A stretch of 64,000 nucleotides of DNA, taken from positions 1 to 64,000 of the forward strand of contig NZ_NTFY01000033.1 in assembly GCF_002289565.1 (NCBI RefSeq), in the 5' to 3' direction. Of the stretch, positions 9,965 to 29,254 are shown piece by piece. The notes below the pieces were generated by a model, which saw only the letters and a program-made list of their open reading frames with translations, was not told where the DNA came from and did no database searches. The position numbers and the translations under genes are program-made. Origin of the DNA: Rhodopirellula sp. SM50 (GTDB lineage Bacteria; Planctomycetota; Planctomycetia; Pirellulales; Pirellulaceae). Each line of letters opens with the position of its first letter. Position 1 is the stretch's first letter.

Positions 9965-10288
9965 CTGCGTCTTGATCTCAGTGGTGCACTTCCAACGTCC
10001 CAAGCCGCTCGACTCGCAAGGATCGACGCGTCGTGCGTTTGGTCGAATTCCCCTTTTAGTAAAAGAAAAATAATTTCGATCACACAACGCGAGTCGCGGG
10101 GGAGTCCTGCGCCACTGGATCACACGATGCGACACAAGAGATCAAGACGACGACCGCACCAAAACGCTGACGACCTACGGCCAGTCGATTCAAGAATCTG
10201 GCGTCAGCCTTTCGGCCCGGAGTCCCACGCTGGCCTGAGCCCACCGCGACCGCACATCAACCGCCGAAGCAGTAAGCAATTCGATTAA

Positions 10289-10377
10289 GTTCAACGGCAG
10301 CCGTCACCGGGCACAGAGAGCCGACTTTCCATTTGTGAACCTTGCAAGCCGTGCTCCGCGTGCACGGCATTGTTATC
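10289..10377 (-). other. attC-like site a
   Basis: Read on the minus strand, the site opens with GATAACAATGCCGTGCACG and closes with GGTGACGGCTGCCGTTGAAC. The ends pair imperfectly (GCCGTGCACGCGG against GCCGTCACCGG), leaving extrahelical G residues as in folded integron attC sites. The stop codon of the preceding gene (10373-10375) lies inside the R'' box, as is common for gene cassettes. It is the outermost site of the array. Confidence 0.8.
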
Positions 10378-10594
10378 GGCTTGCTGGCCCCGAATCCCGA
10401 CGCGGCCAACCAAGCTCACCATAAAGCAGCTGTTCATATTCCTCGTGTCCAGCGATTCGCGTCTCTAACTCGATCGCGTCTTTGGGAATACTCTGAAACA
10501 GGTGTTGCCTATCAGGAAGTGCAAGCGAATAGAAATACAATTCAACCAAGTTCTGTGACGAGGCTGCGGCAACCATTTCAGATAGCGTCATCAA
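10373..10594 (-). CDS. small hypothetical cassette protein
   Basis: This is a 73-residue, mainly helical protein of unknown function, without a signal peptide or recognisable motif. The case for it being real comes from context. It starts about 20 bases after the end of attC-like site b and its stop codon sits in the R'' box of site a, so it exactly fills an integron cassette. Cassette genes are usually promoterless and rely on an upstream promoter or read-through. It could be truncated. Confidence 0.55.
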   Translation of the reverse strand: MMTLSEMVAAASSQNLVELYFYSLALPDRQHLFQSIPKDAIELETRIAGHEEYEQLLYGELGWPRRDSGPASR

Positions 10595-10614
10595 TCAGAT
10601 TACGTTCTTTTCGT

Positions 10615-10697
10615 CCAATAACGGCAGCGGGGCCCGCTAGTTGAGCATCCATTCGTGAAAACTGACCAACGGTCCTCCGTGTGCACGCGTTGATTAC
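10615..10697 (-). other. attC-like site b
   Basis: The minus-strand sequence opens with AATCAACGCGTGCACACGGAG and ends GGGCCCCGCTGCCGTTATTGG. It aligns with site a over the GTGCAC/CGGAG block, the central TTCACgAATGGA block and the CTGCCGTT end. Pairing of the two ends is weaker than in the other sites. Confidence 0.7.
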
Positions 10698-10713
10698 CCG
10701 CCACGCCGCCAGG

Positions 10714-11169
10714 TCAGTGCCAGTCAGCACCGCAGTGAAAACATTGTAGTGACTTTTGAGTTCGTAGTGGCTTGGAACATTTTGGACACGGTGGTCCGTC
10801 CGATGGAAACGTGCGAGGGGGCATTTCCGAAGTGGTAGCGCCAACATCCAATTCGCCCCAAGGCAACGACGCAGACCAGACGCAGGCAAAGCCAACTAAT
10901 AGCAGTGGTAGTGATCCATGGATCGTCATCGCCGTTAGTCCGAACGGCAAGATCGTCGTTAGTCCGCCTGCTGCGAGCAGAGCACCGAAACCACCGAGCA
11001 TCCACCGGAGTGAGTTGTCCGACGGGTATCCGGCAACGATCACGGAGAATATGAAAGCTAGAAAAATCGCGATTGGGTATCCCCAGAAAGGACCGCGAAA
11101 GACGGAACACAAAGCGGCGATCGTGAGCGTCAGCCAAACGACGTGAAACGTGAAGCGTCGTATTCGCAT
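10714..11169 (-). CDS. membrane protein with C-terminal zinc ribbon
   Basis: This is a 151-residue cassette protein with three to four predicted membrane segments (residues about 8-30, 32-48, 57-78 and 86-102) and a C-terminal zinc ribbon (CPKCSKPLRTQKSLQCFHCG). Zinc ribbons on a membrane stub often mediate protein or nucleic-acid contacts, but no function is known here. It lies between attC-like sites c and b, starts about 20 bases after the former and ends 17 bases before the latter. That spacing supports it as a mobile cassette gene. Confidence 0.75.
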   Translation of the reverse strand: MRIRRFTFHVVWLTLTIAALCSVFRGPFWGYPIAIFLAFIFSVIVAGYPSDNSLRWMLGGFGALLAAGGLTTILPFGLTAMTIHGSLPLLLVGFACVWSASLPWGELDVGATTSEMPPRTFPSDGPPCPKCSKPLRTQKSLQCFHCGADWH

Positions 11170-11190
11170 GTAGGCGATGCTAATTCAGTC

Positions 11191-11284
11191 GGGTAAATCA
11201 CGCGTAACCGAGAACCCGCGGGAGATGTTGTGATGGCCAAACCGCCTTGCTCGCGTTCTTCGGTTCACGCGATGGCTATGCACC
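11191..11284 (-). other. attC-like site c
   Basis: The core arms are CGCGTGAACCGAAGAACGCG and, 40 bases on, CGCGGGTTCTCGGTTACGCG. They are near-perfect reverse complements with single unpaired bases, the hallmark of attC. The outer R'' and R' boxes are degenerate. It separates two cassette genes. Confidence 0.75.
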
Positions 11285-11299
11285 ATCGGACTAGTTGAG

Positions 11300-11740
11300 C
11301 TAGCGTACCAACACATCATAAGCGACGGTAGTGATCACCCCATCTATCACACGAATAGTGAGCCAAGCATCACCTTCCTGGAATCGGTCTGGTTCGAACT
11401 TGGACTCGGTGCGAAATACGAAATGGTAGTACAGTCCGCCTTCCAGTTTCCCAGACTCATCTGCTAGGTCGAGAAACGATTGAAACGTTGTCGCCATTTC
11501 TCCTTCTAGCCGTTTGGTCCATGCGACGTTGAGGCCATCCGAGGATTTAGCACGTAGGTCATCGTGCAGTTGCCGGTAGAGAGCTTTACGCTCCGCGCGT
11601 TCCAAAGAAGTCAATTCACGTTGAACGACGTCAGTGGGCGTATTCTGAGTGTCGGTCAATATCGGTAGAAAGCCAGCGAGAACCCATATCAATGCGAGAG
11701 CGGCAATTCCGTTTCGCAGCACCTTCGGCTTCATGGGCAA
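11300..11740 (-). CDS. single-pass hypothetical cassette protein
   Basis: This is a 146-residue protein with an N-terminal membrane anchor or uncleaved signal (GIAALALIWVLAGFLPIL, residues about 11-28) followed by a charged helical stretch and a C-terminal beta-rich segment. No family is recognised. It lies between attC-like sites d and c, starting 22 bases after the former, so it is best read as an integron cassette gene. The exported or membrane-tethered topology is shared with several neighbours in the array. Confidence 0.7.
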   Translation of the reverse strand: MPMKPKVLRNGIAALALIWVLAGFLPILTDTQNTPTDVVQRELTSLERAERKALYRQLHDDLRAKSSDGLNVAWTKRLEGEMATTFQSFLDLADESGKLEGGLYYHFVFRTESKFEPDRFQEGDAWLTIRVIDGVITTVAYDVLVR

Positions 11741-11762
11741 TGAAATTCAATAGAGCTATGTT

Positions 11763-11853
11763 GGCGAACGTCCGGGTTGACCGGGGACGAGCGGGAAGGT
11801 AACCACTGCCTGAAAACGTTTTCGAGTCCTCCGCGTCCAACCCATGGTTCGTC
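11763..11853 (-). other. attC-like site d
   Basis: On the minus strand it opens CGAACCATGGGTTGGACGCGG and ends GGTCAACCCGGACGTTCGCC. The arms GGGTTGGACGCGGAGGAC and GGGTTGACCGGGGAC pair with two extrahelical G residues. This is one of the clearest attC sites here. It is the leftover 3' end of a cassette whose gene was removed by the IS91 remnant beside it. Confidence 0.85.
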
Positions 11854-11934
11854 GGCATTCACCGTGAAAGCGGCGGTCGTGGTTTGCATCTGGATATTAT
11901 AGAATCCGTCCGGCAGTCGTGGCAAAACCTCTTC

Positions 11935-12557
11935 ACATGGGAAAGCGTCCTACCGAGTCACCGAGAACCAGGTTCGGCACTATGGCTGAATGAGCAGCAA
12001 TTCGTCGATCCACCTGGACGAGCTCAAGCTTCTTGTCTGGATGTCCCTGGGCTGGGTGTACTGGCTGGTCGGCGGTCACGCTCCGCAAAGCGAACCACTG
12101 GTCCGGGCACCACGCTGTGCACTCTGTGGAGGCGACTTGCGCGTGGTGACGGTCAGCTTCGACCCGATGCCACTTCCACGTGAACCTCCGCCGGCCCTGT
12201 TTCAAAGGAGAGCCGATTGAACTTCCGGCAGCCAACTGACTCGCAAAATCAAACGTCATCGGGGAGGCGAACGGGGATGCTCTGCGCCGCTCTTGCGCCA
12301 AACCGCCCAGCCATGACAGCGGCGCTCTTCAGCGATCGGAAATTCGGTCATCTGAAGCAGCAGGATGATCTGATGGGACCCAGCATGGCAACCGAAGCAG
12401 CGTTTCGCACCCGACAACGGGCCTCGGACGAGTCCCGTCCATCGAAGCAAAATCCAAGAATGAGTTAGCCGCCCGAGCAAGCGTTAACGGGCTTCTTGAA
12501 CAGAGGACTTGAGCGTCGGCTCGCAAGCTCGCGAAGTCAAATCCTTACTGGTTCTGC
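11935..12557 (+). mobile_element. IS91-family remnant (right end copy 1)
   Basis: This is a decayed IS91-family element. The 11990-12220 frame encodes the C-terminal part of a Y2 transposase: MSLGWVYWLVGG followed by CALCGGDLRV matches WLWRGWTYWLASG...CDRCGGELEV of the intact transposase at 16873. The last 65 bases (about 12490-12556) match the right end of the intact element (ttgaacagag, then gaagtcaaatccttactgg). The end abuts GTTC, that is GAAC on the minus strand, just outside the stop codon of the next gene. Confidence 0.75.
11990..12220 (+). pseudogene. IS91 transposase C-terminal fragment
   Basis: About 75 codons survive. They cover the end of the catalytic domain and the C-terminal zinc-binding CxxCGG of an IS91-family transposase. 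The HUH and Y2 motifs are missing. It is clearly diverged from the intact copy 4 kb downstream, so it derives from an older, related insertion. Confidence 0.7.
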
Positions 12558-12561
12558 CAAG

Positions 12562-13245
12562 TCATTCGGCCATGCAAACTTCAGCGATCTCCCAATCGCG
12601 AAGAGTGACAAAATAGCCGCGGAATTCTGGATCACCCTCAACGCTGTAGGCGATCTCGATCGCGTTTGAGTCATCATACAAGTTGATGCCAACGTGAGGC
12701 ACAAGCCGAGAAGTAAGTTCGTCGGATGTTTTGATCTCGGGATGGCATTTGATCAGTGCCGAGCAGATGTCTGGCCATAGTTGAGCGTGCCGAACCCGCA
12801 GGTTGGCAATCAAGTCACGTTGGTTTTGGGTAGGGCCAGAATCATCGGCCCGTATGTGAATGTGCGCGGAGTCAATCGGTGCAGAGTCGAATGGAATGTC
12901 GGCATCCCATGAGTCGACATAGTAGTTAAGGTGCCCAAAGTCTGGATCGTCGACCGTTTCTTGCGGGCTGCCGGTCATGCCATCGGGTTCGTCGTATTCA
13001 CCAGCGGGGAGAATCCGAATCGTGATTTCATCACCCGTTGTCACATCAGGTGACGGCCATCCTGCGTGATGTTGCCGGTCTTGCGAACCGTCGTACAAAC
13101 CAAGTCCGCCAATTTGGAGATCGTGGGAGTGTTCTTGGCCGGGATGTTTCACGTATGTGAGTCCGACCGATAGTACACCGTCGCCGTTGATCCCGGAGAG
13201 GCAAACTCGCTCGCCGTTCTTCAGTATCTCGAAACGCGTTGACAT
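12562..13245 (-). CDS. hypothetical cassette protein, 227 aa
   Basis: This is a 227-residue soluble, acidic protein with alternating predicted strands and helices and no signal peptide. It ends with a strand-rich segment (FRGYFVTLRDWEIAEVCMAE). No family is recognised with confidence. Its stop codon lies 6 bases from the right end of an IS91 remnant, and the junction on the minus strand reads GCAGAAC, resembling an attC R'' box cut by the insertion. It was therefore probably a cassette gene whose attC was lost. Confidence 0.7.
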   Translation of the reverse strand: MSTRFEILKNGERVCLSGINGDGVLSVGLTYVKHPGQEHSHDLQIGGLGLYDGSQDRQHHAGWPSPDVTTGDEITIRILPAGEYDEPDGMTGSPQETVDDPDFGHLNYYVDSWDADIPFDSAPIDSAHIHIRADDSGPTQNQRDLIANLRVRHAQLWPDICSALIKCHPEIKTSDELTSRLVPHVGINLYDDSNAIEIAYSVEGDPEFRGYFVTLRDWEIAEVCMAE

Positions 13246-13489
13246 TTAGTGAAAGATTCTCATCGTGGCAGAACGAATTGCGATCGATCCGCGCATGCGG
13301 AGGAACGGGGATAGATCGGGCGACAGAACTTTGTCGCTCCTCAGGTGGGCCGGTCACAGGACCTGATTAGAACGGATCCTGCCACACGGTACCAGTTTCT
13401 CGGGCCAGGCGAAGTTCACCAGGAAACAACGTTGACGCAACATTCGTCCACGATATCCCGGGGAATGTCGATTCAATTGTTGACGGAGA

Positions 13490-13556
13490 TGGCACCCTTC
13501 TCCCCCACAAATCGTTAACAAGCTTGCTTGTCGATTTGTGGGGGAGAGGGGTGCCA
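13490..13556. repeat. 25-bp palindromic hairpin
   Basis: Arms 13490-13514 and 13532-13556 are reverse complements with one mismatch in 25 (core ctcccccacaaatcg), separated by a 17-base loop. The gap 13246-13823 has no gene. It holds this hairpin followed by the second copy of the 226-bp repeat. The lack of a T-run on either side argues against a simple terminator. Confidence 0.8.
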
Positions 13557-13593
13557 GTGTATTTAATACAGATTCGGCAGTAATAAAATCGAC

Positions 13594-13819
13594 ATCCCGG
13601 AGGGATCACAGCGAGTAGCCGGAGGTCAGCGCAGCGGCACCTCCGGACCACGCACCCGATCCGCCCCTCGACCCCGGACGGGGTCGCAGCGAATCCCGGC
13701 ACCTCGCCGAGCGCAACCTCATGCTCAATGGGCTCCCAGCGAGTGGGATAGGCTTCCAGCCTGTCATTCCAGCGTCGACAGGCTGGAAGCCTATCCCACT
13801 TTTTTCCCGTGCGTTGCTA
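13594..13819. repeat. 226-bp dispersed repeat, second copy
   Basis: This is nearly identical to 9739-9964, including the REP palindrome (13742-13800). It stops exactly where the IS91 right-end fragment begins (after cgtgcgttgctaac). The two copies bracket the left part of the cassette array. Confidence 0.85.
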
Positions 13820-13822
13820 ACG

Positions 13823-14179
13823 TCGCCAAATGTCGCTCGACGGCATGGGGCTACCCGTCTGCGCGGTGGCAGCGACAAGACCTCCCAACGCCACTCCAAG
13901 AGTTGTCTGATGGTGGACTTCTCATCGGCCCGGACCGTCGAGAAACCCATGCCATCGCTTTCTCGGCGTTTCAACAGGCACCCAAGCCGAATCACGGCCT
14001 GTGAATTGCCGTGCCAATCAGAGCAAAACCCAATCGAATTTTTCGCCGACTCCGGGCGTCTTGAACAGAGAATTTGAGCATCGGCTCTTCCGCCGGAGTG
14101 GACGCTGCCCTTCGGCTGCAAACAGGGAACAGAGAGAGACACCGCTCGTCATTCACGCGATGTCAAATTCTTATTGGTT
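13823..14179 (+). mobile_element. IS91-family right-end fragment (copy 2)
   Basis: This 357-bp segment is about 90% identical to the non-coding right end of the intact IS91-family element (18093-18451). It starts just past where the transposase gene would end and finishes at the same base. It contains no transposase code, as expected for a one-ended or rolling-circle transposition product or a deletion remnant. The outer end abuts TAAC on the minus strand at the stop codon of the next gene. Confidence 0.85.
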
Positions 14180-14705
14180 ATGGCTTGTGCAGTTTGACTT
14201 CACCGAACGTCATGTAGACCAAGGTATTCCCGGCTGGTCCACGGTAAGCGCCGTTCGCATTGCCAAGACGCGCCGCAACGGCAGTAAATTCCCATGCCTC
14301 GTCTTCGGTACATGCTACGAGTCGATCCGTGAAGTTGGGCAGATTGTGTTGTTCTCCGAACTGTCGTGCAAGTTTTGCGTGGGCACGAAGTGGTTCTTCA
14401 ACCGACGGATGATCCCAGCCCCAGAGAAACGAGCCGTCCTCCGTATTGTAGGTGCCAATAATCTGCATGTCTGCCTCCGCAATCGTTCCGTCGGCAAACG
14501 AGAATTCAATTAGACCCGAATCTTGGTCAGCCGACCAATTGTCTTCGTCGCCCAGATGCCAAGTAGATGAATGAGCAGCCGTTTGCACGCGCAGCCCTTC
14601 GATCGCCTGTTGCATGTAGAGTTCAGCTTCCACGTTCGGCGTCCTTTTTGCGCAGCCCGAAAGCATAAGTAGAATGACGGCGATTGTGCCCAGTACACGA
14701 TTCAC
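14178..14705 (-). CDS. DUF6882-like lipoprotein (cassette gene)
   Basis: This is a 175-residue lipoprotein: a short signal ends in LMLSGC, giving cysteine 18 as the lipidated residue. The body resembles the DUF6882 family (GTYNTEDGSFLWGWDHPSV followed by an LPNFTDRLVACTEDEAWE helix), whose role is unknown. The GTG start at 14705 lies 7 bases after attC-like site e, typical of cassettes. The stop codon is formed at the junction with an IS91 right end (CATAAC on the minus strand), so the last residues may be altered and the original attC has been lost. Confidence 0.75.
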   Translation of the reverse strand: MNRVLGTIAVILLMLSGCAKRTPNVEAELYMQQAIEGLRVQTAAHSSTWHLGDEDNWSADQDSGLIEFSFADGTIAEADMQIIGTYNTEDGSFLWGWDHPSVEEPLRAHAKLARQFGEQHNLPNFTDRLVACTEDEAWEFTAVAARLGNANGAYRGPAGNTLVYMTFGEVKLHKP

Positions 14706-14711
14706 TTAAAA

Positions 14712-14800
14712 GCCATAACGGCAGACATCACGGGAAACGGACGAAAGATTCTCTACTTCAAAAACCGCGCAATCCGTTCTCCCGCGCATGCCATGGTTCG
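14712..14800 (-). other. attC-like site e
   Basis: The minus strand opens CGAACCATGGCATGCGCGGG and ends CCGTGATGTCTGCCGTTATGG. The arms CATGCGCGGGAGAACGG and CATCACGGGAAACGG pair with a few bulged bases. A second attC-like start (CTCAACGCGTGCGC) lies 20 bases upstream, perhaps the relic of a fused site. Confidence 0.8.
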
Positions 14801-14833
14801 CCGCCCGTTTGCGCACGCGTTGAGCTACGGTCA

Positions 14834-15202
14834 TCATTGGTCAGGTTCAGGGTGAGTCATGTGTATGTCGTCATCAGTCCCGGATTCCCCGTCTGGACCT
14901 GGCGAAGATAGCACAAACCCTTTTTCTGTCACCTGATAGTTTACGGAGTTGCCCCATTCGTCCACAAGCAGCGTGAAGTCACCGCCAAGAAAAGGTGCGA
15001 GTTCAGGTTCGATCAGTTCCTCCGGGTATGTTCCGTACGATGAGTGGTAGAGCTGACATGCAAGCGATATGGCTCGTAGATTGTTCGTCTGAGCCAAGAC
15101 GTAGTCATACTTGTTGCAGCCCGGAGAGACAGCGAGCAGCAGCAGCATGGCGATCGCAAAACAGAGTGCGGATTGGTGTGGACGAGCCGTTCTGGTGGTC
15201 AC
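14834..15202 (-). CDS. pseudopilin-like C-terminal lipoprotein (cassette gene)
   Basis: A GTG start at 15202 is preferred because the longer frame begins inside attC-like site f. The resulting 122-residue protein has a signal peptide ending LLAVSPGC, a likely lipidation site. The rest resembles the globular end of GspG-type pseudopilins: a helix LRAISLACQLYHSSYGTYPEEL, then DEWGNSVNY and SPGPDGESGTDDDI, the last being the calcium-loop signature. The N-terminal type IV pilin helix is absent, so it cannot assemble as a normal pilin. Its role as an exported cassette product is unknown. Confidence 0.7.
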   Translation of the reverse strand: MTTRTARPHQSALCFAIAMLLLLAVSPGCNKYDYVLAQTNNLRAISLACQLYHSSYGTYPEELIEPELAPFLGGDFTLLVDEWGNSVNYQVTEKGFVLSSPGPDGESGTDDDIHMTHPEPDQ

Positions 15203-15215
15203 GGTACTAGTCGAT

Positions 15216-15305
15216 CGGCGAACGGCACGCGTCACCTGGCACGAGCGGAAACACTTGAACTCAAAACTGACTCGATCGAGTGCTCAGGTGCACGGCATTG
15301 TTCCT
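15216..15305 (-). other. attC-like site f
   Basis: The minus strand opens GGAACAATGCCGTGCACCTG and ends CCAGGTGACGCGTGCCGTTCG. The arms GTGCACCTGAGCAC and GTCACCTGGCAC pair with extrahelical G residues. Its first 15 bases closely match the opening of site a. Confidence 0.85.
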
Positions 15306-15762
15306 CGGACCTCGTCGAGTGCTCGGCGGCAGCGTTGAATGCGACCGATGCAAGAGGATACCGCGGCGAGACAGACCAAGCAAATTTTTGCCCGTCAAAC
15401 GAGCGGCGCGAACGTGGCGGGACCACACAGCGGTAGATCGCCACGAAAAACACGAGAAGACACAAAAAGAGGAAGGGGCATGGTGGCACGTGGAGAGTTT
15501 GACGGGCGATCCATCGGGACCGCACTCAGGCCCGCCGTGGCTCGGACCAAGTCTCCGATTTGCGTCAGCCAGGGGACCGTGACGATCCAAAGCAATCAGA
15601 CGCAACGTGCGGCATCGATCAATCGACCGAAACCGCCCGACGCCGAAACCTCAACGCGGTGTGCACGCGACGGAAAAGTGCGACGGAAAAGTGCGACGCT
15701 CAGACAATCGGCCCAGTAAATTCGGCAAGTCAGTCCGACGCCTGGAACTGCCTCGCTGCTTA
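15306..15762 (-). other. apparently gene-less cassette
   Basis: These 457 bases lie between attC-like sites g and f. No minus-strand frame looks like a real protein. They contain a segment (cacgagaagacacaaaaagag, near 15450) of a type often repeated in planctomycete genomes. It could be a non-coding or decayed cassette. Confidence 0.45.
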
Positions 15763-15852
15763 CGAGGAACGACTGCCGTAACCGGGAACGGACAGTTAAC
15801 TTTCCTTGTGTACAACCTTGCAAGCCGTTCTCCGGTTCACGGCTTGGTTCAA
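15763..15852 (-). other. attC-like site g
   Basis: The minus strand opens TTGAACCAAGCCGTGAACCGG and ends CCCGGTTACGGCAGTCGTTCC. The arms GCCGTGAACCGGAGAACGG and GCCGTAACCGGGAACGG pair almost perfectly with two extrahelical G residues, the best attC fold in the window. It abuts the left end of the IS91-family element. It may be the displaced attC of the cassette gene that ends at 18457. Confidence 0.88.
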
Positions 15853-15948
15853 GTAAGCCGCTGCGCGGCGTAGATGATCGGAAAGTTTTGGAAAAATGGG
15901 TCGGCAGAGCATGCTGGTTCTCTTGTCTCTCACACAAAGGAGCACGCT

Positions 15949-16872
15949 ATGCCGACCTATGACAATCTACCCAAGACGTCGCAGTACTTCAAAGGAAAAT
16001 GGTACGACAAAATGGTCGAAGACCTGCAGTTGGACGGAAAGGCCAAGCGAACGGTCTACGGATACGTTCGCGAAGTCCGCAAGCTCGCGGATTTTCACCA
16101 AAAATCACCTGCCAAGGTCACTGAAAAGGACCTCCGATCCTACCTGCTGTATCAGATCGTCGACCAGGAAGTCGCTTCAGGGTCCCAGAGCGTCACGCTC
16201 TCGGGAATCAAGTTCTTCTACCGCATCACCTGCCCTCGAAATTGGAAAGTTCTCGATCAAACAAAGATCAACTACATCAGTGCACTGCCCGAGGTGATCA
16301 CCCAGAGACAGGTCTTTCAAATGCTCGACGCCTGCCGAACCTTTCGCATGAAGAGTTTCATTTGGGTCACCTACACGCTCGGCCTGAGAATTAGCGAGGC
16401 GGCCAACTTGCAGGTCGGCGATATCGATAGCGAGCGGATGATGGTCCACGTCCATCGTGGTAAAGGCGCAAAAGATCGCTACATCATTCTGGCGAACTCG
16501 ACCCTCGCGGTACTCCGAGCGGTCTGGACCGAACATCGAAACCCGAAGTTCGTCTTTCCTGCCAAAGGACGCAATCATCAGGACGGTTCTCAGTCCAAGA
16601 CGCATGTCAGCATTTCGACCATCCAAAGTGCCATCACACAGATCACCAAGCAGTTAAACTTCGGCAAGAAGGTGTCCACGCATACGCTCAGGCACTCGTA
16701 CGCCACGCATCTGCTGGAAGCAGGGGTCAGCCTGAAGGCCATTCAGAAATTCCTCGGCCACAAAAGTCTGCAAACGACGTTGATCTATCTGCATCTAACT
16801 GAGACCGCCGAAGCGGATGCACGAAAGATCATCAACAAGCTGTTTGTCGGCCGCAAGAAGTCCGGCGAATAG
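15949..16872 (+). CDS. tyrosine recombinase of IS91-type element
   Basis: This is a 307-residue site-specific recombinase. The start at 15949 has a strong ribosome-binding site (AAAGGAG, 7 bases upstream). An N-terminal SAM-like core-binding domain (residues about 12-95) precedes the catalytic domain, where the active-site set is visible: Arg in TLGLRISEAAN, Lys in RGKGAKDR, HTLRHSYATHLLEAG, LGHKS, and the nucleophile Tyr in LIYLHL. It lacks the extra helix that marks integron integrases, so it is not IntI. The stop codon is followed immediately by the ATG of the transposase, implying translational coupling. Its job in the element is unproven; co-integrate resolution or target choice are possibilities. 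Confidence 0.92.
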   Translation: MPTYDNLPKTSQYFKGKWYDKMVEDLQLDGKAKRTVYGYVREVRKLADFHQKSPAKVTEKDLRSYLLYQIVDQEVASGSQSVTLSGIKFFYRITCPRNWKVLDQTKINYISALPEVITQRQVFQMLDACRTFRMKSFIWVTYTLGLRISEAANLQVGDIDSERMMVHVHRGKGAKDRYIILANSTLAVLRAVWTEHRNPKFVFPAKGRNHQDGSQSKTHVSISTIQSAITQITKQLNFGKKVSTHTLRHSYATHLLEAGVSLKAIQKFLGHKSLQTTLIYLHLTETAEADARKIINKLFVGRKKSGE

Positions 16873-18069
16873 ATGGTCGCCGTCGCAGAGGTGGCGGACT
16901 CTACCGTCGCCGATGCACTGCGAACGTTTGCTCCCGGCTACGTTGCCAAGTATCACCAGCGCATGCCGCCCCATCACCGCAAGGTGCTGGGGTTGATCAC
17001 GCGCTGTAAAACGGGTGAGCTCGGCAACGTGATGTATCGCTGCGAGACCTGCGGGATCCGTCACTGGGTCGGTCGCTCCTGCGGCAATCGGCATTGTCCG
17101 AACTGCCAAAAGGAGAAGACTCAAGCCTGGCTCGCCAAGCAGACCGGCAAGCTGCTTCCGGTGCAACATTTTGTCGTCACGTTTACGGTTCCTGAGGAAC
17201 TGCGACCGCTGCTGCGCGCCCATCCGGAAGTCGGCTACGAGGCGATCTTCAACGCCGGCAGTGAAACGATCCGCACGCTGTTGAAGAAGCCCAAAAACCT
17301 CGGCAGCGACAAAGTCGGCTTCTTCGGCGTGCTGCACACCTGGGGGCGTGACCTGACGGCCTACCATCCGCACGTGCACTTCGTGGTTCCCGGCGGTGGC
17401 GTCAGCCCGGACGGTTCGCAGTGGCTGCAAGTCAACAAGGACCAACTGTTTCATCCACTGCCGGCCAAGATGCTTTACAAGAAGCTGTTTGTCGAGGCGA
17501 TCCGCAAAGCAGGACTCTACGACCAACTGCCCCACGGCGTGCTCAAGTTTGATTGGGTGGTGAACCTCAAACCGGTCGGTGATGGCGAAGCGGTGTTGAA
17601 ATACTTGGCACCGTACGTTTACCGCGTCGCGATCAGTGATAATCGGATCGTGTCGGTTGACGAGCATGGCGTGAGCTACAAGGTCAAGCCCTCGGGTAAA
17701 CGCGTCTACGAAACGCGTCGACTTGAGGGCGAGTCGTTCGTCCGCGCGTTCGCCCAGCACATCCTGCCGCCCGGTTTTAAGAAGATCCGTTACTACGGCT
17801 TCATGAGCCCCAACTGCAAACTCCAACTCGCCGATGCGCGTTGGTTGGCGTGGTTGTGGCGCGGCTGGACGTACTGGCTGGCCAGCGGAATGTTTCAGCG
17901 AGAGCCGGTCACACGGAAACCTCCGAAATGCGATCGATGCGGTGGCGAGCTTGAAGTCGAAGGCGTGACCGACAGCGACGGTCGTTGGCTCTGGCGTCGC
18001 CAGCTTGCCGTGCGCGGTCCACCTGTGGCTCGTTCAAAAACTACGGGCGAGAGGGCGGCGATCGCATGA
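16873..18069 (+). CDS. IS91-family Y2 HUH transposase
   Basis: This is a 398-residue rolling-circle transposase. An N-terminal zinc-binding region (CETCGIRHWVGRSCGNRHC, then CPNCQ; residues about 57-78) is followed by the HUH metal motif HPHVH (165-169) and the paired catalytic tyrosines Y244 and Y248 in YLAPYVYR. A second CxxCGG ribbon closes the protein. These enzymes nick one strand and transpose by replication from the right end, without target duplication. It starts on the base after the recombinase stop codon. It appears intact, so the element may be active. Confidence 0.95.
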   Translation: MVAVAEVADSTVADALRTFAPGYVAKYHQRMPPHHRKVLGLITRCKTGELGNVMYRCETCGIRHWVGRSCGNRHCPNCQKEKTQAWLAKQTGKLLPVQHFVVTFTVPEELRPLLRAHPEVGYEAIFNAGSETIRTLLKKPKNLGSDKVGFFGVLHTWGRDLTAYHPHVHFVVPGGGVSPDGSQWLQVNKDQLFHPLPAKMLYKKLFVEAIRKAGLYDQLPHGVLKFDWVVNLKPVGDGEAVLKYLAPYVYRVAISDNRIVSVDEHGVSYKVKPSGKRVYETRRLEGESFVRAFAQHILPPGFKKIRYYGFMSPNCKLQLADARWLAWLWRGWTYWLASGMFQREPVTRKPPKCDRCGGELEVEGVTDSDGRWLWRRQLAVRGPPVARSKTTGERAAIA

Positions 18070-18456
18070 CCGTCAATCGCCCAACAAACCGAACGTCGCC
18101 AAATGTCGCTCGACGGCATGGGGCGACCCGTCTGCGCGGTGGCAGCGACAAGACATTCGAAGGCCACTGCAACAGTCGTCTGATTGCAAACTTCTCATCG
18201 TTCCGGATCGTCGAGCAACCCATGGCATCGCTTTCTCGGCGTTTCATCAGGCACCAAAGCCGAATCACGGCCTGTGAATTGCTGTGCCAATCAGAGCAAA
18301 ACCCAATCGGGTTTTTCGCCGACTCCGGGCTTCTTGAACAGAGAATTTGAGCATCGGCTCTTCCGCCGGAGTGGACGCTGCCCTTCGGCTGCAAACAGGG
18401 AACAGAGAGAGACACCGCTCGTCATTCACGCGATGTCAAATTCTTATTGGTTCGTC

Positions 18457-19347
18457 CTAATTGGGGCGAGGACAAAGGTGATTCTCGTTAAGCGCAAAGT
18501 CTCGTAGATCGCAACCGCAGATTGGGAATTGAGAATGGATTGCATCGAGAGACGCCGGATCAAAATAATTTTCAAATGCGTGCGATATGGCAGATTTTCG
18601 ACGGGGATCAGACACGAGGAACATTACAACGGAGTCAGTTTGTAATCTCGGATGCACGAAACGAGAATGAGGGGCGATTTGATATCCCATCCGATTGTAC
18701 AGGGGGATCATCGGTATGTGAACGTTGATCAAATCGATTCTCATCCCGTCTAAATGTTGATCCCTCCAAACGGCAGCAACAAATTCAAACACCTCTTTCG
18801 GGCTTCCACGGTGTAGTGGCGACTTGGTTAGACGCGAAGCGGAACCTATTAACGGTCTCAGCATTTTCAGGACTGGGGACGGATAGTAGCTTTCGCAATC
18901 AAGTTCTCCGCGTCGTGCTTGGTTTACACGCATCGTGACAGTTGGGACACCATTTTGCTCTTGGATATAGTGATCGGCTGTTTCGTCAAATTCGTCTGTT
19001 GTGGGCGTTGTCGACGTGTGCTGCAACCTAAGGTCGATGACGTGCGAAAACTCTGGGGCATCCGATCGTAGTTTTCGAATACGCGCATGTTCCAAAGGCG
19101 ATGACGCCGACGCGCATAAAGGCCGCAGCGTGGTGAGAGGGCCAATATCTGGGATCGAGTCTATTTTCGACTGCGTGGTTTCGTTGTAAATGTAAAGCAA
19201 ATTTTCGTCTTCAGAACGGACTCGTGCATGCGAACCGTCGCAATATGGTTTGTTTTGACTCAATCCGCATCTGCATACCCATTGCGCGCGAGTACTCGGT
19301 GGAATTTTGAGTGGCGAATCAGCAGTATGTCGAATTAATCGTGGCAT
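18457..19347 (-). CDS. CDGSH iron-sulfur / GNAT-like fusion
   Basis: This is a protein of about 296 residues. The N-terminus has a CDGSH-type [2Fe-2S] motif (CRCGLSQNKPYCDGSHARV, residues about 26-44). The remaining 240 residues resemble the GNAT acyltransferases related to N-acyl amino acid and acyl-homoserine-lactone synthases, with a late YNRMGYQ helix-strand. The start at 19347 has GGGAG upstream and overlaps the preceding gene by 13 bases, so translation is coupled. It is the last gene of a four-gene operon with two diiron oxidases. It ends 6 bases from an IS91 right end, the junction reading GACGAAC on the minus strand. The enzyme activity is inferred only. Confidence 0.7.
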   Translation of the reverse strand: MPRLIRHTADSPLKIPPSTRAQWVCRCGLSQNKPYCDGSHARVRSEDENLLYIYNETTQSKIDSIPDIGPLTTLRPLCASASSPLEHARIRKLRSDAPEFSHVIDLRLQHTSTTPTTDEFDETADHYIQEQNGVPTVTMRVNQARRGELDCESYYPSPVLKMLRPLIGSASRLTKSPLHRGSPKEVFEFVAAVWRDQHLDGMRIDLINVHIPMIPLYNRMGYQIAPHSRFVHPRLQTDSVVMFLVSDPRRKSAISHAFENYFDPASLDAIHSQFPICGCDLRDFALNENHLCPRPN

Positions 19348-20060
19348 ACTCGTTCTCCCGTTGCGCGGAGGAAGGCAGCGTTCCACAGTGCATGAGGATA
19401 AACAACGCGAAACGTATCAAATCCGTACTGGATATGCGAAGCAGCATCATCATATCGGTTGAGACATTCCGCAATTACGTTAGCTAGCATGTCCGCATGT
19501 CGAACATCTTCTTCCGCGTGCAATCTCATGAATTCCAGCCGATCATCTGGATATCCAGCGCGTAGCAGTGTCGGTGCGACCTTTTCGGTCATCAGTGTTG
19601 TGAATTTTTCAAAAAAGTACATAAAGCCAAGGTGACAAAGCGGATGTTCCCGTTCGCCGAGATTTCGAACCGTGCCGATAAGTGCTTGCGCGGTCGGGGT
19701 GGGTCTCGAATCGCGACAGGCGATTTGGTTGTTAGTCAGGATGGCATAGTCCGCTGCGGCAATCGCACCGTGTCCAACCTCTTCAACCTGCACAGCAATC
19801 ATTGCGCGAATTAAGCCCTGTTCATCGATCACAGTGCCGAGGCGGCCGACAGCGGAGAAGACGGCTTTGTTTACTTCGAGCTGATACGAGCCGATATCTC
19901 GCATTACTTCCGCCATGATCTTAAGTACGATTGATGACGGAGTCGTTGGCGCTATGAACGTCTTCCAGTACGCCTGATGCTCGACTTCTGTTTCGATTTC
20001 AAACAACAGTTGATCAAGGTTATCGAGGAATTCGAAGTTGGTTACAACGGCGTGTGCCAT
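19335..20060 (-). CDS. heme-oxygenase-like diiron oxidase 1
   Basis: This is a 241-residue all-helical protein of the iron-containing redox enzyme (CADD/PqqC-like, HDO) group. Metal-ligand motifs are EEVGH near residue 93 and HAEEDVRH near residue 188. The latter has the His-x3-Asp-x2-His spacing of the diiron oxidases SznF and CADD. Such enzymes activate O2 to hydroxylate, cleave or decarboxylate amine or fatty-acid substrates. It has a good ribosome-binding site (AGGAG). It is paralogous to the next gene upstream in the same operon. The product is unknown. Confidence 0.78.
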   Translation of the reverse strand: MAHAVVTNFEFLDNLDQLLFEIETEVEHQAYWKTFIAPTTPSSIVLKIMAEVMRDIGSYQLEVNKAVFSAVGRLGTVIDEQGLIRAMIAVQVEEVGHGAIAAADYAILTNNQIACRDSRPTPTAQALIGTVRNLGEREHPLCHLGFMYFFEKFTTLMTEKVAPTLLRAGYPDDRLEFMRLHAEEDVRHADMLANVIAECLNRYDDAASHIQYGFDTFRVVYPHALWNAAFLRATGERVCHD

Positions 20061-20205
20061 AGCTACTCCTAGATGGAATGAAAACGGGACTATTGAAGGG
20101 ACGAACGTTTACGTTCAACACCAGCGATAACCGGGCAATGTGATCGAAGCGGAGGCAGCGAAAAATGCCGAAGGCAACACCGCCGTAGTTATCCGACGCG
20201 CGTGA

Positions 20206-20946
20206 TCATGCGTCCGACCGCATTGCTCTCTCGTACGCAGTTCGCCAGACGGGAATGGGGTAAACGGCTTCGAAATATTCGTATCCCCGCTGAACAGAAT
20301 CAAGTGCTTCAGGATAGCTTGAAACAACTTCAGCAATCAGGTGGTTTACCAGTCTCGCGTGTTTCAGGTCTTCAGTCGAATGGAACTCAACGTATTCAAG
20401 CTGATCTTCCCTCATTCCTTTTGCTCGGAGTCCCTCTTTTACGGCATCAGTTACGATCGGAGTCAAGCCCTCAAAAAGATACAACGCGTCAATGTAAGCG
20501 AATGGATCCCTGAGTTGCGTGATCATCCACCAAACGCCAGCAACCGCGAATGAAGGTGGGCTCATCGGCAAGTTTCTCGCGTAGGTTTCATCACCGCCCA
20601 TGTTAACGAAATCGCGGAGCGCCATCTCGCCATGGTCCCATTCGTCAGCTTGGTGGTACAGCATTGATCGAATCATTTTGGGCTTCATTGAGCGAGGCAA
20701 TTGCGCAATTGAAGCTATTGCGGCTTCAATAACATGTGGCTGGTATCCAACTATCTCGAGGTAAATTTCCCGCATTATTGCCTGGACAACATGATCGGGA
20801 GTGGTTGGGTCTGTAACCGTCAGCCAAAACGGCTCTTGCTTCATGCGTTCGAGCAGTTCATCAACTCGGCCAGCAAGCCAGGATACGATCTCAGCGTCTT
20901 GGCATTTCAAGTCATCAGTGGATTCAATACTGCTAGTTGAGGACAT
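20206..20946 (-). CDS. heme-oxygenase-like diiron oxidase 2
   Basis: This is a 246-residue paralogue of the preceding oxidase. The ligand motifs are DEWDHGE near residue 98 and HSTEDLKH near residue 192, again His-x3-Asp-x2-His. The start at 20946 is chosen for its AAGGA ribosome-binding site and overlaps the upstream GNAT-like gene by 14 bases. The spacer to the downstream oxidase is 145 bases and has a weakly attC-like palindrome. Two different HDOs side by side suggest successive oxidations of one substrate or a heterodimer. The substrate cannot be named from sequence. Confidence 0.78.
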   Translation of the reverse strand: MSSTSSIESTDDLKCQDAEIVSWLAGRVDELLERMKQEPFWLTVTDPTTPDHVVQAIMREIYLEIVGYQPHVIEAAIASIAQLPRSMKPKMIRSMLYHQADEWDHGEMALRDFVNMGGDETYARNLPMSPPSFAVAGVWWMITQLRDPFAYIDALYLFEGLTPIVTDAVKEGLRAKGMREDQLEYVEFHSTEDLKHARLVNHLIAEVVSSYPEALDSVQRGYEYFEAVYPIPVWRTAYERAMRSDA

Positions 20947-21538
20947 ATGTCTTTGTTCCTTTTGGAGTAGAGGCAGTTGCACGGGATTTGGCGAAGGGCG
21001 ATTTGATTGATCTCAGGTAGGCTTGATCGGCTAAATCAAGCTTCATTACGACTACATCCCCATACTCAGGGTGCGAAATCTCGCGGACCCTTTTGTGCCC
21101 CATTCTGAAGAAGAATTTGTCAAGCGGCGGATTGCAGTCGATAAAGTCAGTTTGAATGGCGTGTTGCTGTGCGAATTGAAAGACAGCCTTGGACAGTTTC
21201 ACTGCTAGCGTACCTGAGCGAAACTCTTTGGCGATCATTAGGCGTGTCGTTATAGAGGTTGAAACCCGCTGCTGCTCACTCAGGGAGCCAAGACCATAAA
21301 AGTCGTCGTACTCGCCAACGCTACCATCACGTAGGAATTTAATTCTCAACGTCCCCACGATCGCGCCATGTTCGTACGCGACAAGGGTGTGTCCGAAATC
21401 ATCAAGCGAATCGCGGATACTACGCTGGGAATGATCCGCGTACCGCTGAGGGCGATTCATCTCCAAAACGTAGATTGAGTATCGAAAACGGTACACTTCT
21501 GACAACTCGATCGCCGTTTTGGCAAGCCTAATTTCCAT
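20933..21538 (-). CDS. N-acyl amino acid synthase-like GNAT protein
   Basis: This is a protein of about 201 residues resembling the autoinducer-synthase-like GNAT group (FeeM-type N-acyl amino acid synthases). The opening VYRFRYSIYVLEMNR is typical of that group, with a strand IVGTLRIKFL and a late LDKFFFRMGHKRV. These enzymes join an acyl chain from acyl-ACP to an amine such as an amino acid. The start at 21538 has GGGGA five bases upstream; a TTG start 21 bases earlier is also open. It is the first gene of the operon, 14 bases overlapping the diiron oxidase. The downstream order suggests acylation followed by oxidation. Confidence 0.68.
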   Translation of the reverse strand: MEIRLAKTAIELSEVYRFRYSIYVLEMNRPQRYADHSQRSIRDSLDDFGHTLVAYEHGAIVGTLRIKFLRDGSVGEYDDFYGLGSLSEQQRVSTSITTRLMIAKEFRSGTLAVKLSKAVFQFAQQHAIQTDFIDCNPPLDKFFFRMGHKRVREISHPEYGDVVVMKLDLADQAYLRSIKSPFAKSRATASTPKGTKTYVLN

Positions 21539-21583: not shown

Positions 21584-23827
21584 CTAAGCTGATTTCTGTC
21601 CGTCGCCCCAAAAAACCGTCACGACATGTGTGTCCGCGGGACTCTCGTCTTCGTAAATTCCCGTAGCGGTCACCGTGTCATTTTCGTCAGCCACCGGCGT
21701 CGCATCGATCGAAACAAGCGCCGGCGCCGAATTCAACACGGTCAATGTGGCCTGTGAGGTGGATGATGCTCCCAATCGATCGGTCGCACGTACGCGGATA
21801 ACAAAGTCGCCGTTGTCGTCGATCTCGTGCGCGACCAAGTCATTCCACGTGATGACGGGACGCGCTCCCTGGGCATCGTCAAATCGCCCATCGCCGCCAA
21901 GGTCCCAATCGAAACGCAACGAGTCCGCGTCACCGGGATCGACGTCATCTCCGACGGCTTTCAGATTCAGCAGATCTCCTTCGTCGATAAGGTACATTCC
22001 ACCCGCAAAAACGTCGGGAGCCGCATTGGTCACCGTCAGCCGCACACTGGAAATGCGTTCCGAAGCGTCGCCGACCCAGCCGTCTGAATCGGCATCGACT
22101 GCCCGTAGTTCGACGCGGAAATCGCCCGGGCCAAACTCGTCCAGCGAAATGCGGTCGTTAGCGCCGACCTGCACGGAACGGATGACGACATCATCCTGAT
22201 AGATGGTGGCATCGACGCTGGCGATCCCTGAGTCGTCTGTGACTGACCAGGAGACCGAGTTGGCGATCCCGTGCGATTCTGTGTGCGAATCGTCCAGCAG
22301 CGGAGAGCCGTCGGAGGTGAAAAACGCGATGGTCGGTTTCGCCGTATCGTCGTCGTAAATGGTGAACGATGTCGAGCGAGACGAGGTAACTGAGGAGTCG
22401 TCGATGCTGCCCGAGCCATCCCAATCACGATCGTCGTCGACAGCCGAGCGGCTCAACACGTAGTTGCCGGGAGGCTGCGCGTCAAAACTGAAGGAGCCGC
22501 TAACCGGAGCCCCTCCGCTCGCCCATGTGCCAGGCGAGAGACGTTCTCCATGCCGGCCCGTCGCCGTAATACTGACTTCGCGCACGCTCGATTCGTCCGT
22601 TGCGTCCCAGCGAAACGTTAGCGGCGCGCTATCGGCGATCCGGCGGCTGGCGGGGCCCGTCAAGGTAATCGTTGGTCCGCTACTGTCATCGTCCTGAACG
22701 ATCACTTTTTGCTTTATTGTGACGCTGTTAAAAGCGTGCGCGGTAATCGAAAAGACGTACTCTCCTAAGCCGTACTGGTTGAAATCGACGCTTCCGGACG
22801 GTGAGACCTCGCCGCTCAGTTCCGGTATCCGCTCCCCCTCACGATAGACCTGCAGCTCGACGGAACTGGGCGTATCTTGCTCGCCCCACGAGAAAACGTG
22901 GTTGCGAACATCCCAGCGGAAAACCTGGTCGGCTGCATCATCTTCTGTAACGGATCTCCCGTAGTTCGTCTCGATCGTCGGCCGAGCTTCCAGCTTCTCG
23001 CCGATGATGTTTCTCAACTGCTGTTCGATCCAGTCATCGTGGGACAGCTTGCCATGGTCGGTCCGGGTGGTCGTCGTGGTCCCACTGAAAGCTTTGCAGA
23101 AGCCTTTCAGGTAGTCCGGCGCGGTGCAGCCGCGTTTTTTCGTGCCTCCGGCTGCATTGCGTATGTCGTTCTGTTTCAGTTGGTCATCGAACGTAGATGC
23201 CGTGTCTTGAACGGCGATTCTTCCATCCGAGCCATAATCGACCGGCCAGGGATAATTCTGCTGCCAGCGGTTGAAAAAGTACCCCACGCTCTCCGGAACA
23301 GAGACGTCTTGGAGCGGCTTTCGGAAACCGGTCGTAATCCGTGAAACGGGGTCGATCGTGGCCAGCAGATCGATTTCCGCGGAAAGCGTAGCCTTAGAGG
23401 CGAGCAACGCTTTCTCGCCACCAATACTGTGGCCGACAAGGATCACCACATCGTCCGGTTTCGTGGACGCGCTGATATACGCTCCGTATGCAGCGGCGAA
23501 TGTCACAGAATCGTAGGCCTCTCGAATCAATTCGATCCTGGATCCGCCTCGGCCATTAAAAGAGGCGTTCAGTTCATCGTAGATTTCTTTGGCAGGGATT
23601 GGCCCCTCTGCAAAAAGTCCTCCTGGTGCGAAAAAAGCCCGCACATCGTCCCCCCGGAACTGATGTTCGCCGAGCAGATAGTCAGGGTAAGGGAACGCAA
23701 TCGTGTCACTCACCAACAGCCTCCGCGCTTCAAGTGCCTGGTACTGTAGCCTCCGCCGGCGACTAGCAGTGCGTTGGTGACCACGGGCATTCCTTGAGGA
23801 TCGACGCAAACGGTGTAACAGTGACAT
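21584..23827 (-). CDS. LEPR-XLL alpha/beta hydrolase with Ig-like repeats, 3' truncated
   Basis: This is a 747-residue exported surface protein. The N-terminus has the planctomycete LEPR-XLL-like motif (LQYQALEARRLLVSD). A hydrolase domain follows with a nucleophile elbow GHSIGGEKAL near residue 130. The C-terminal half is a series of Ig/PKD-like repeats marked by SWSVTDDSG, FDWDLGGDG and related segments. The reading frame stops abruptly in the middle of a repeat (TVFWGDGQKSA), where the adjoining operon DNA begins. The gene was therefore probably cut by the island junction near 21590. The truncated product may not be functional. Confidence 0.75.
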   Translation of the reverse strand: MSLLHRLRRSSRNARGHQRTASRRRRLQYQALEARRLLVSDTIAFPYPDYLLGEHQFRGDDVRAFFAPGGLFAEGPIPAKEIYDELNASFNGRGGSRIELIREAYDSVTFAAAYGAYISASTKPDDVVILVGHSIGGEKALLASKATLSAEIDLLATIDPVSRITTGFRKPLQDVSVPESVGYFFNRWQQNYPWPVDYGSDGRIAVQDTASTFDDQLKQNDIRNAAGGTKKRGCTAPDYLKGFCKAFSGTTTTTRTDHGKLSHDDWIEQQLRNIIGEKLEARPTIETNYGRSVTEDDAADQVFRWDVRNHVFSWGEQDTPSSVELQVYREGERIPELSGEVSPSGSVDFNQYGLGEYVFSITAHAFNSVTIKQKVIVQDDDSSGPTITLTGPASRRIADSAPLTFRWDATDESSVREVSITATGRHGERLSPGTWASGGAPVSGSFSFDAQPPGNYVLSRSAVDDDRDWDGSGSIDDSSVTSSRSTSFTIYDDDTAKPTIAFFTSDGSPLLDDSHTESHGIANSVSWSVTDDSGIASVDATIYQDDVVIRSVQVGANDRISLDEFGPGDFRVELRAVDADSDGWVGDASERISSVRLTVTNAAPDVFAGGMYLIDEGDLLNLKAVGDDVDPGDADSLRFDWDLGGDGRFDDAQGARPVITWNDLVAHEIDDNGDFVIRVRATDRLGASSTSQATLTVLNSAPALVSIDATPVADENDTVTATGIYEDESPADTHVVTVFWGDGQKSA

Positions 23828-28231: not shown

Positions 28232-28393
28232 AAAGGTTGTGATGCAAAAGTGCCGGGATAAGGTTCTGGTCAATGCCTTTCAAAAGGTCCTGAACCTTTC
28301 GCGTTGGTAACACGCACTGAATTGACGAGAGAGTCCCCGGCGACACGGTTCCGAAGAACCATGGAAGGATTTCGAGGTAGGTTGCCAGTCATG

Positions 28394-28467
28394 TTTCAAG
28401 CACGGGACTCGAACCCGTTACATTCAGATTAAGAATCTGATGCTCTAACCAAATGAGCTAGCTGTAA
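28394..28467 (-). tRNA. tRNA-Lys(CTT), imperfect acceptor
   Basis: The anticodon arm TCAGA-TTCTTAA-TCTGA gives CTT. T arm ACGGG-TTCGAGT-CCCGT. Two of seven acceptor pairs are mismatched, so function is doubtful. Confidence 0.7.
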
Positions 28468-28490
28468 TGACGTGCTAGTCCTCGAATCAG

Positions 28491-28561
28491 AAACGCTGGT
28501 GGGAGTCGAACCCACTTCGACCGGGTTGCAGCCGGTTGCCTGGCCATCTGGCTCCAGCGTT
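28491..28561 (-). tRNA. tRNA-Cys(GCA)
   Basis: Anticodon arm ACCGG-CTGCAAC-CCGGT gives GCA. The acceptor AACGCTG/CAGCGTT is perfect and the discriminator is T, as usual for cysteine. Confidence 0.9.
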
Positions 28562-28631
28562 TTGTTGTCCGCCGTTGCGACGGACACGTTTCAGTCTTTG
28601 TCTCTAAAAGTAGTCGTCTCTATTAGATCCA

Positions 28632-28799
28632 TCAAAAGCGGCCCGACTTGAGACAACATCGTTTGAAGCGTTGTCCGCTACCGCATGGGCAGGGATCATT
28701 GCGTCCGAGTTTTTCCTCGAGCTGCTTTTCGCCATGGACAACCCGCACTCCACACTTGACTTGCGTTTCCGATGGGAATCCGCGTCGTCGTTTACTCAT
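28632..28799 (-). CDS. SEC-C motif mini-protein inside the tRNA array
   Basis: This is a protein of about 55 residues consisting of a basic N-terminus ([11 protein letters not shown]) and a C-terminal SEC-C zinc motif ([18 protein letters not shown]). SEC-C motifs bind zinc and contact SecB, ribosomes or other partners. They are best known at the C-terminus of SecA and also occur in small free-standing proteins. The gene lies between tRNA-Cys and tRNA-Arg genes on the same strand, so it should share their transcript. The start is the first Met after the tRNA-derived sequence. Its function within the array is unknown. Confidence 0.7.
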
Positions 28800-28888
28800 C
28801 GGCTCGAAAGCAATGGTCTTCGTTATGCTCGTGTTCGTATCGCATTGGTCCGCTCCGGTGTGAGTGATCAACGTTTGTTGGTAACAAG

Positions 28889-28961
28889 TGCTCTCGCCAG
28901 GAATCGAACCTGGTCTACGACCTTCGCAAAGTCGCGTGCGAATCCGGCACACTCCGAGAAC
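28889..28961 (-). tRNA. tRNA-Arg(GCG)
   Basis: Anticodon arm CGACT-TTGCGAA-GGTCG gives GCG. Acceptor GTTCTCG/CGAGAGC pairs with one wobble. T loop TTCGATT. Confidence 0.85.
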
Positions 28962-28986
28962 ATGCTGGGCTCATCGAAGAGCCGAG

Positions 28987-29058: not shown

Positions 29059-29082
29059 ATTTGATTAATACATAGTCACAAG

Positions 29083-29156: not shown

Positions 29157-29173
29157 TTGGGTTGTCATATCAG

Positions 29174-29253: not shown

Positions 29254-29254
29254 C

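Follow-up and report, generated by a model that had tools for sequence, protein, structure and literature searches.

Two gene pairs of acyltransferase and diiron oxidase next to an integron cassette array of Rhodopirellula sp. SM50

What would two acyltransferases and two diiron oxidases, encoded side by side on one strand, do together? The question is raised by a locus of Rhodopirellula sp. SM50 (contig NZ_NTFY01000033.1), from which a stretch of 64,000 nt was analyzed; this whole stretch is called the window, and all coordinates count from its first letter. The locus had been singled out as a candidate biosynthetic cluster from the DNA letters (hereafter, the original prediction). The pairing of an acyltransferase of the GNAT family with a heme-oxygenase-like diiron oxidase (HDO) was found to be real, recurrent and undescribed within the literature searched; of the exact four-gene set no second instance has yet been found.

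Four open reading frames (ORFs) without internal stops occupy positions 18457-21538 of the minus strand (Table 1). The gene families named in the original prediction are all present and intact, the matches to the Pfam families FeeM, Haem_oxygenas_2 (both oxidases) and zf-CDGSH each lying above the cut-off of the family. The genes are arranged as two overlapping pairs: the gene for the FeeM-type GNAT overlaps that for HDO-A by 14 nt, and HDO-B overlaps CDGSH-GNAT by 13 nt, the ATG of the latter being placed inside the 3' end of HDO-B. The two oxidase genes are spaced by 145 nt, so that the earlier description of four genes that overlap or nearly overlap applies inside each pair and not between the pairs.

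Table 1. Features of the locus and of its surroundings (coordinates in the window).
Feature	Length	Coordinates	Strand	Evidence or remark
FeeM-type GNAT (N-acyl amino acid synthase / autoinducer-synthase-like acyltransferase; P0004)	201 aa	20933..21538	-	PF21926, 3.4e-12
HDO-A (heme-oxygenase-like diiron oxidase; P0003)	246 aa	20206..20946	-	PF14518, 5e-13; ligands; structure model
HDO-B (second, more diverged heme-oxygenase-like diiron oxidase)	241 aa	19335..20060	-	PF14518, 5.2e-14; ligands
CDGSH-GNAT (CDGSH iron-sulfur domain fused to FeeM/LuxI-like GNAT; P0001)	296 aa	18457..19347	-	PF09360, 8e-10
Spacer between the pairs, attC-like site	145 nt	20061..20205	-	3' part matches attC right arm of congener contig L086, 29/32 nt
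attC R''-type box GACGAACCA		18448..18456	-	directly after CDGSH-GNAT stop codon; GAACC in attC consensus
Repeat starting at AACCA after CDGSH-GNAT	~360 nt	18081..18452	-	sequence comparison
IS91-family element (tyrosine recombinase, 15874-16872; IS91 transposase, 16873-18069)		15874..18069	+	NF033538, 3.4e-100
Integron cassette array, seven attC sites		10285..15855	-	covariance model, E 9e-4 to 7e-16
attC sites		10285-10380, 10609-10701, 11187-11283, 11759-11855, 14709-14804, 15213-15308, 15760-15855	-	
5' remnant of giant PKD/Ig-domain gene	747 aa (ORF)	21584..23827	-	homology to 3433-aa congener ORF

The HDO superfamily has more than 10,000 members, of which approximately a dozen are functionally validated, and its ligand set consists of three histidines and three carboxylates (3H/3C) (PMC13108848). 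This six-residue diiron set (E-x2-H, a middle Glu and H-x3-D-x2-H) is kept in both HDO-A and HDO-B, including the His-x3-Asp-x2-His motif that had been reported as intact. In HDO-A the ligands are E114, H117, E171, H201, D205 and H208 (P0003 numbering), and equivalents are present in HDO-B. Across 13 sequences of the HDO-A clade the E-x2-H and H-x3-D-x2-H motifs are invariant, and the middle Glu is replaced by Asp in one protein of locus L034. HDO-B groups in the same clade (support 100/99). Fold and, mostly, 3H/3C ligands are shared with UndA, BesC, CADD, HrmI, SznF and MboA (PMC13108848). The best structural match of an HDO-A model (mean pLDDT, 89.4) was 3dde (Z 25.6), a protein from Shewanella whose function is unknown and which was also the nearest solved chain by sequence profile (E 2.5e-20); next came CADD (Z 22.4), the N-oxygenase HrmI (Z 20.7) and UndA (Z 18.8). 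Since TenA proteins score about equally against the model, the fold alone cannot decide the reaction of HDO-A. Judged by their sequences, both oxidases fit the HDO ligand set and fold, and diiron binding and O2 activation are predicted for them.

FeeM-type enzymes form N-acyl amino acids from acyl-acyl carrier protein (acyl-ACP). The first GNAT of the locus (P0004) passes the FeeM family profile with 46.8 bits (cut-off, 27 bits), and a profile of its family matched acyl-homoserine lactone (AHL) synthases in the PDB (1.5e-5 and 2.3e-4) together with ordinary GNATs, the best of which was ElaA (5e-7). In the second (P0001), the predicted fusion was recovered: a CDGSH domain with intact cluster ligands (C-x1-C-x8-C-x3-H, CRCGLSQNKPYCDGSH) is N-terminal to a GNAT half. 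The latter gave no match to any GNAT family of Pfam or NCBIfam and fell short of the FeeM profile; it was recognized by hhalign against the FeeM-like family (probability 96%, E 4e-9), and LasI and FeeM were the top PDB matches in a Foldseek search with a model of low confidence (mean pLDDT of 60, rising to about 75-85 over much of the GNAT half). The model match is supporting evidence only, because the alignment behind the model contained FeeM-like proteins. By remote similarity, the GNAT half is classed as FeeM/LuxI-like and not as a FeeM family member. Among 59 relatives, 15 matched P0001 in the CDGSH part alone and one (G026, locus L006) in the GNAT part alone, and plasmid matches were limited to the CDGSH part (3 records).

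When one genome per species was scanned, at least six loci of the HDO-A clade came to light, and a plasmid search added one more, on a Rhizobium plasmid. The seven listed loci span Verrucomicrobia, Phycisphaerae, Acidobacteria, Proteobacteria and the Rhizobium plasmid. A FeeM-like GNAT is encoded near the oxidase in all seven, adjacent or overlapping in six and about 2.2 kb off in L035; two oxidases are present in four (L031, L032, L033 and L034). The order of the genes varies, the HDO coming first in L031 and in one L034 module and the GNAT lying between two HDOs in L032 and L033. The succession in L031 is HDO, GNAT, PEMT/ICMT-type membrane protein and again HDO, neighbouring genes overlapping or lying 14 nt apart. 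PEMT/ICMT-type membrane proteins neighbour the pair in both L031 and L034, a fatty acid desaturase in L033 and L035, and a flavodoxin is encoded in L034. The L033 GNAT passes the FeeM cut-off (27 bits), and those of L031 (26.8 bits), L034 (25.8 bits) and L032 (22.2 bits) fall below it. No CDGSH match was seen in these seven loci (the stretch of L031 being just 3.9 kb); two of the seven genomes or records behind them have, outside the locus, a small ORF that matches CDGSH.

As a control, 14 loci of more distant HDOs (L053-L066) were searched with hidden Markov models built from the clade. The control omits L025 (same genus as L023/L059); L067 is the locus of the P0001 relative and holds no HDO, and L068-L070 repeat clade loci. 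A FeeM-like GNAT lies directly beside the HDO in five of the 14 (L053, L055, L056, L058 and L062). In the first four of these it is fused to a C-terminal cyclic-nucleotide-binding domain and its gene overlaps or touches that of the distant HDO; the L055 GNAT passes Acetyltransf_5 and not FeeM, and the L062 GNAT reaches 28.2 bits with FeeM. The association of GNAT and HDO is broader than this oxidase clade and far from universal. The originally proposed grouping of an acyltransferase and an HDO as a unit is thus borne out by its recurrence in the clade loci and in the more distant ones; a search for the same set elsewhere, the check that had been suggested, recovered the GNAT-HDO pair, and the exact four-gene set was found nowhere else among the 59 relatives, the plasmids, and the seven listed loci and their genomes. 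The refuting condition set out beforehand, a lack of synteny with every other genome, thus applies to the exact set within the material searched and does not apply to the GNAT-HDO pair. In a viral collection, a pattern scan found relatives neither of the GNAT nor of the HDO. Two other arrangements were seen in the control: a ketoacyl-synthase III fused to the HDO in L066 (L004), and an enoyl-CoA hydratase convergent with the HDO in L065 (L003).

The four genes adjoin, and share their strand with, an array of seven attC sites (Table 1), located with a covariance model that was built solely from seven attC-like repeats of congener contig L086. Among the cassette ORFs of the array, one encodes a DUF6882 protein and another has a weak T2SSG match below the cut-off. 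The stop codon of CDGSH-GNAT is directly followed by an attC R''-type box, a 9-mer that occurs three times on the minus strand of the window and not at all on the plus strand. The repeat that starts there has a copy at 13819-14179 after the DUF6882 ORF (93.6% identity over 361 nt, the box changed to TAACCA) and a shortened copy, with pieces at 12488-12554, that starts with GAACCA after a 227-aa cassette ORF. The junction at the end of CDGSH-GNAT is common to the ends of two neighbouring cassette ORFs. An IS91-family element now separates this junction from the intact attC sites. The cluster likely belongs to the cassette region, and each pair is possibly one cassette. The repeat starts at AACCA right after all three ORF ends, as if inserting into attC sites.

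HDO-A had no match in any of 13 congeners, and two of the 59 relatives carry weak, distant HDOs. In wider samples (392 genomes at E 1e-10; 299, 337, 248, 240 and 247 genomes around relatives at E 1e-15) the HDO-A clade was confined each time to the own or centre genome, and weaker, distant HDOs were found in three of them (7 in the 392 genomes, 5 in the 240 and 1 in the 247). The cluster has a G+C content of 49.8%, compared with 55.4% for the cassette array and 58-61% for the flanks. On the upstream side the cluster borders the remnant of a giant PKD/Ig-domain gene: homology to the 3433-aa ORF of a congener ends at 21590, the edge of the cluster, and the missing rest, sought in the window with the congener ORF, gave no match left of 21392. 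We read the gene pairs as horizontal arrivals, probably as cargo of the integron cassette array. In congener locus L083 (503-3530) a giant PKD-domain gene is also found near an attC array, with the array on the other strand; the same attC model places six sites there, and the arrangement may mark a shared integron position. Elsewhere in the window, 24 tRNA genes form a dense run at 28393-31792, all on the minus strand. PADLOC returned no defence system match for any of the four genes, and predicted promoters and terminators in the cluster were about as numerous as in shuffled sequence. An RNA element inside the cluster was rejected as a candidate, the two Rfam matches lying far under the gathering scores.

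We propose that the locus holds two acyltransferase-oxidase pairs, probably integron cargo, which acylate amines and then oxidise the N-acyl products; we consider this proposal about as likely to be right as wrong. The GNAT in each pair would take a fatty acyl group from acyl-ACP or acyl-coenzyme A and attach it to an amino acid or a related amine, at the amino group. The partner HDO would bind the resulting N-acyl amino acid via its carboxylate, like UndA with lauric acid, activate O2 and remove hydrogen, and the product would be a desaturated or a decarboxylated and desaturated (enamide-like) acyl amide. Acylation followed by oxidative desaturation or decarboxylation is the simplest joint chemistry, given that carboxylate and acyl chain are both available in an N-acyl amino acid. 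The HDOs characterised so far use O2 and for the most part take amino or fatty acids as substrates; in UndA the carboxylate of the fatty-acid substrate binds the iron directly (PMC13108848). Re-reduction of the iron would be carried out by the CDGSH domain at this locus or by the flavodoxin in L034, both of them candidate electron donors that were each seen once. That the CDGSH domain serves an HDO is plausible, and a second example was not found in the searches described above. An iron-sulfur donor encoded in the cluster of its HDO, like the CDGSH candidate, is present in MboA-MboB, perhaps the first pair of an HDO and its dedicated redox partner to be characterised. The donor of that pair, MboB, belongs to the NAD(P)H-dependent flavin/Fe2S2 reductases (PMC13185094); at the present locus the candidate donor is the CDGSH domain that an acyltransferase carries.

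Several observations weigh against this proposal. Among the acyltransferases, P0005 (the Rhizobium GNAT), the L036 GNAT and the second L034 GNAT pass no Pfam family and join the FeeM-like family via intermediates, and P0005 matches P0004 with an E value of only 0.012. HDO-B is strongly diverged (branch 1.42). Nine of the 14 control loci are without a FeeM-like GNAT, some of their flanks being short (4.3 kb in L065; the HDO near the end in L061). The carboxylate may be methylated where a PEMT/ICMT-type protein is encoded, and this would be a point against decarboxylation at those loci. As to the cassettes, the attC model gave the spacer between the pairs no score up to E 10 and the folding of the spacer was no better than that of shuffles (z-score -0.2), and the spacer is accordingly called attC-like only; at the 3' end of CDGSH-GNAT the same model reached only E 0.77. 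Because of the unscored spacer and this E value, a division into two cassettes deserves less confidence than the connection with the array. No integron integrase was found: the recombinase at 15874-16872, the sole integrase candidate tested, scored 155 bits against an integron-integrase cut-off of 265 and was also under the XerA cut-off, the rest of the window and of the genome not being screened.

The order of the two reactions could also be the reverse, HDO-A and HDO-B modifying a free amino or fatty acid and the GNAT then acylating the unusual amine or using the unusual acid. The order of the genes, which differs among loci as described above, gives no direction, and for this reason an oxidase acting first is a serious rival, one that we nevertheless consider somewhat improbable. 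A weak argument against it is drawn from divergence: eight FeeM-like GNATs of relatives are 15-36% identical to P0004, against 28-73% identity to HDO-A among the clade oxidases, which would fit recognition of a shared acyl-amide core by the oxidase.

An integron array gathers unrelated genes, and chance neighbours would be expected to look in part as found here, adjoining the cassette array on its strand. The two pairs would then be unconnected and the CDGSH-GNAT protein unrelated to oxidation. CDGSH-GNAT was indeed seen beside an HDO only at this locus, and the closest relative found of its GNAT half, in L006, adjoins a methyltransferase-like ORF (3.5 kb around) and has no HDO model match within the 16.5 kb around it (L067). 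Against chance stand the pairing of GNAT and HDO in all seven listed clade loci and in five distant ones, over several phyla, the overlap of the genes inside both pairs, and the two HDOs of four listed loci; we regard this explanation as unlikely.

Less probable still is a diffusible signal, for which the GNAT would be the autoinducer synthase, the HDO would tailor the product and an adjacent LuxR-type regulator would read it. The matches of the GNAT profile to AHL synthases and of the P0001 GNAT-half model to LasI and FeeM are in line with such a role, as are the LuxR-type regulators beside three of the seven listed loci (L020, L034 and L036). Only that of L020 passes the Pfam cut-off, the GerE matches of L034 and L036 lying under it, and PAS-like similarity is weak in each of the three; moreover, no LuxR-type protein was present among the ORFs of the window that were scanned (the neighbours in L031-L033 were not screened). 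The single four-step operon of the original prediction, in which an acyl amine is oxidised twice in the order of the genes with the CDGSH domain as electron carrier, has an equally small chance: two oxidations per pathway are made plausible elsewhere by the succession in L031, and by the two HDOs of four listed loci, and L034 has an electron carrier in its flavodoxin, but an attC-like gap parts the two overlapping pairs, which stand beside a cassette array, the second acyltransferase is left unexplained, the gene set was not found in the other genomes searched, and the variable order in relatives speaks against reading gene order as reaction order.

The proposed acylation and subsequent oxidation were compared with known systems. 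No description of an acyltransferase-HDO module was found in the literature searched, most subscription papers lying outside that search, which agrees with the original statement that no such pathway was known; searches of the literature on integrons of planctomycetes, and on biosynthetic clusters in integron cassettes, likewise yielded none. The closest described chemistry found is that of the oxazolone (PMC12856293) and stieleriacine (PMC7293339) pathways. Stieleriacines of the planctomycete Stieleria maiorica are N-acyl dehydrotyrosine derivatives, and their cluster encodes a FeeM-family GNAT, as here; the available text proposes a dehydratase-like enzyme with coupled oxidation and mentions no HDO, unlike the present locus (PMC7293339). 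In the oxazolone pathways TyzACB, TrzAS and OxzAB an N-acyltransferase acts on an amino acid and oxidation follows, as proposed here, with a flavin-dependent oxidase and a ThiF-like cyclase in place of a diiron HDO (PMC12856293). A pathway of the oxazolone or stieleriacine type was rejected for this locus, none of the four genes matching a ThiF-like cyclase or flavin oxidase in Pfam. The words GNAT and CDGSH are absent from the main text of a review of HDOs (PMC13108848), whereas both accompany HDOs here.

Still more distant HDOs are encoded in 19 plasmid records, of which eight were examined. All eight are annotated with a cluster of a thermostable hemolysin, an AMP-binding enzyme, an HDO and an SDR protein (PF12261 checked in two of the eight), and these clusters occur in Pseudoalteromonas, Variovorax, Vibrio, Pantoea and Salinivibrio. 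They resemble the acyl-linked HDOs described here in that the HDO lies beside an AMP-binding, probably fatty-acid-activating enzyme; unlike the pairs, the eight records gave no match to the FeeM-like GNAT model, and hhalign of the thermostable hemolysin with the GNATs yielded a probability of 1% (E 0.05). In V. cholerae, a fatty-acid ligase is encoded beside a thermostable hemolysin in the 'dth region' (PMC12208996). The plasmid clusters (L087-L094; e.g. L091, 2519-4678) often include a TPR protein and a two-component system, and in Pseudoalteromonas donghaensis the AMP-binding enzyme is fused to the HDO.

In its widest form, the proposal would make FeeM-type GNAT and HDO an undescribed, widely scattered module for oxidised acyl-amide lipids or signals, moving in this host as two-gene integron cassettes, with the CDGSH domain as a dedicated donor to the HDO; taken as a whole, this is improbable. 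The pairing itself gives a testable substrate class, N-acyl amino acids, for the whole HDO clade, and new acyl-amide natural products are predicted in several phyla. Should the cassette setting prove right, the locus would be an example of an integron shuffling biosynthetic gene pairs. The CDGSH domain fused to an acyltransferase would, if its proposed role is true, be a type of redox partner not found in the HDO literature searched, and would open the re-reduction of HDOs to direct testing.

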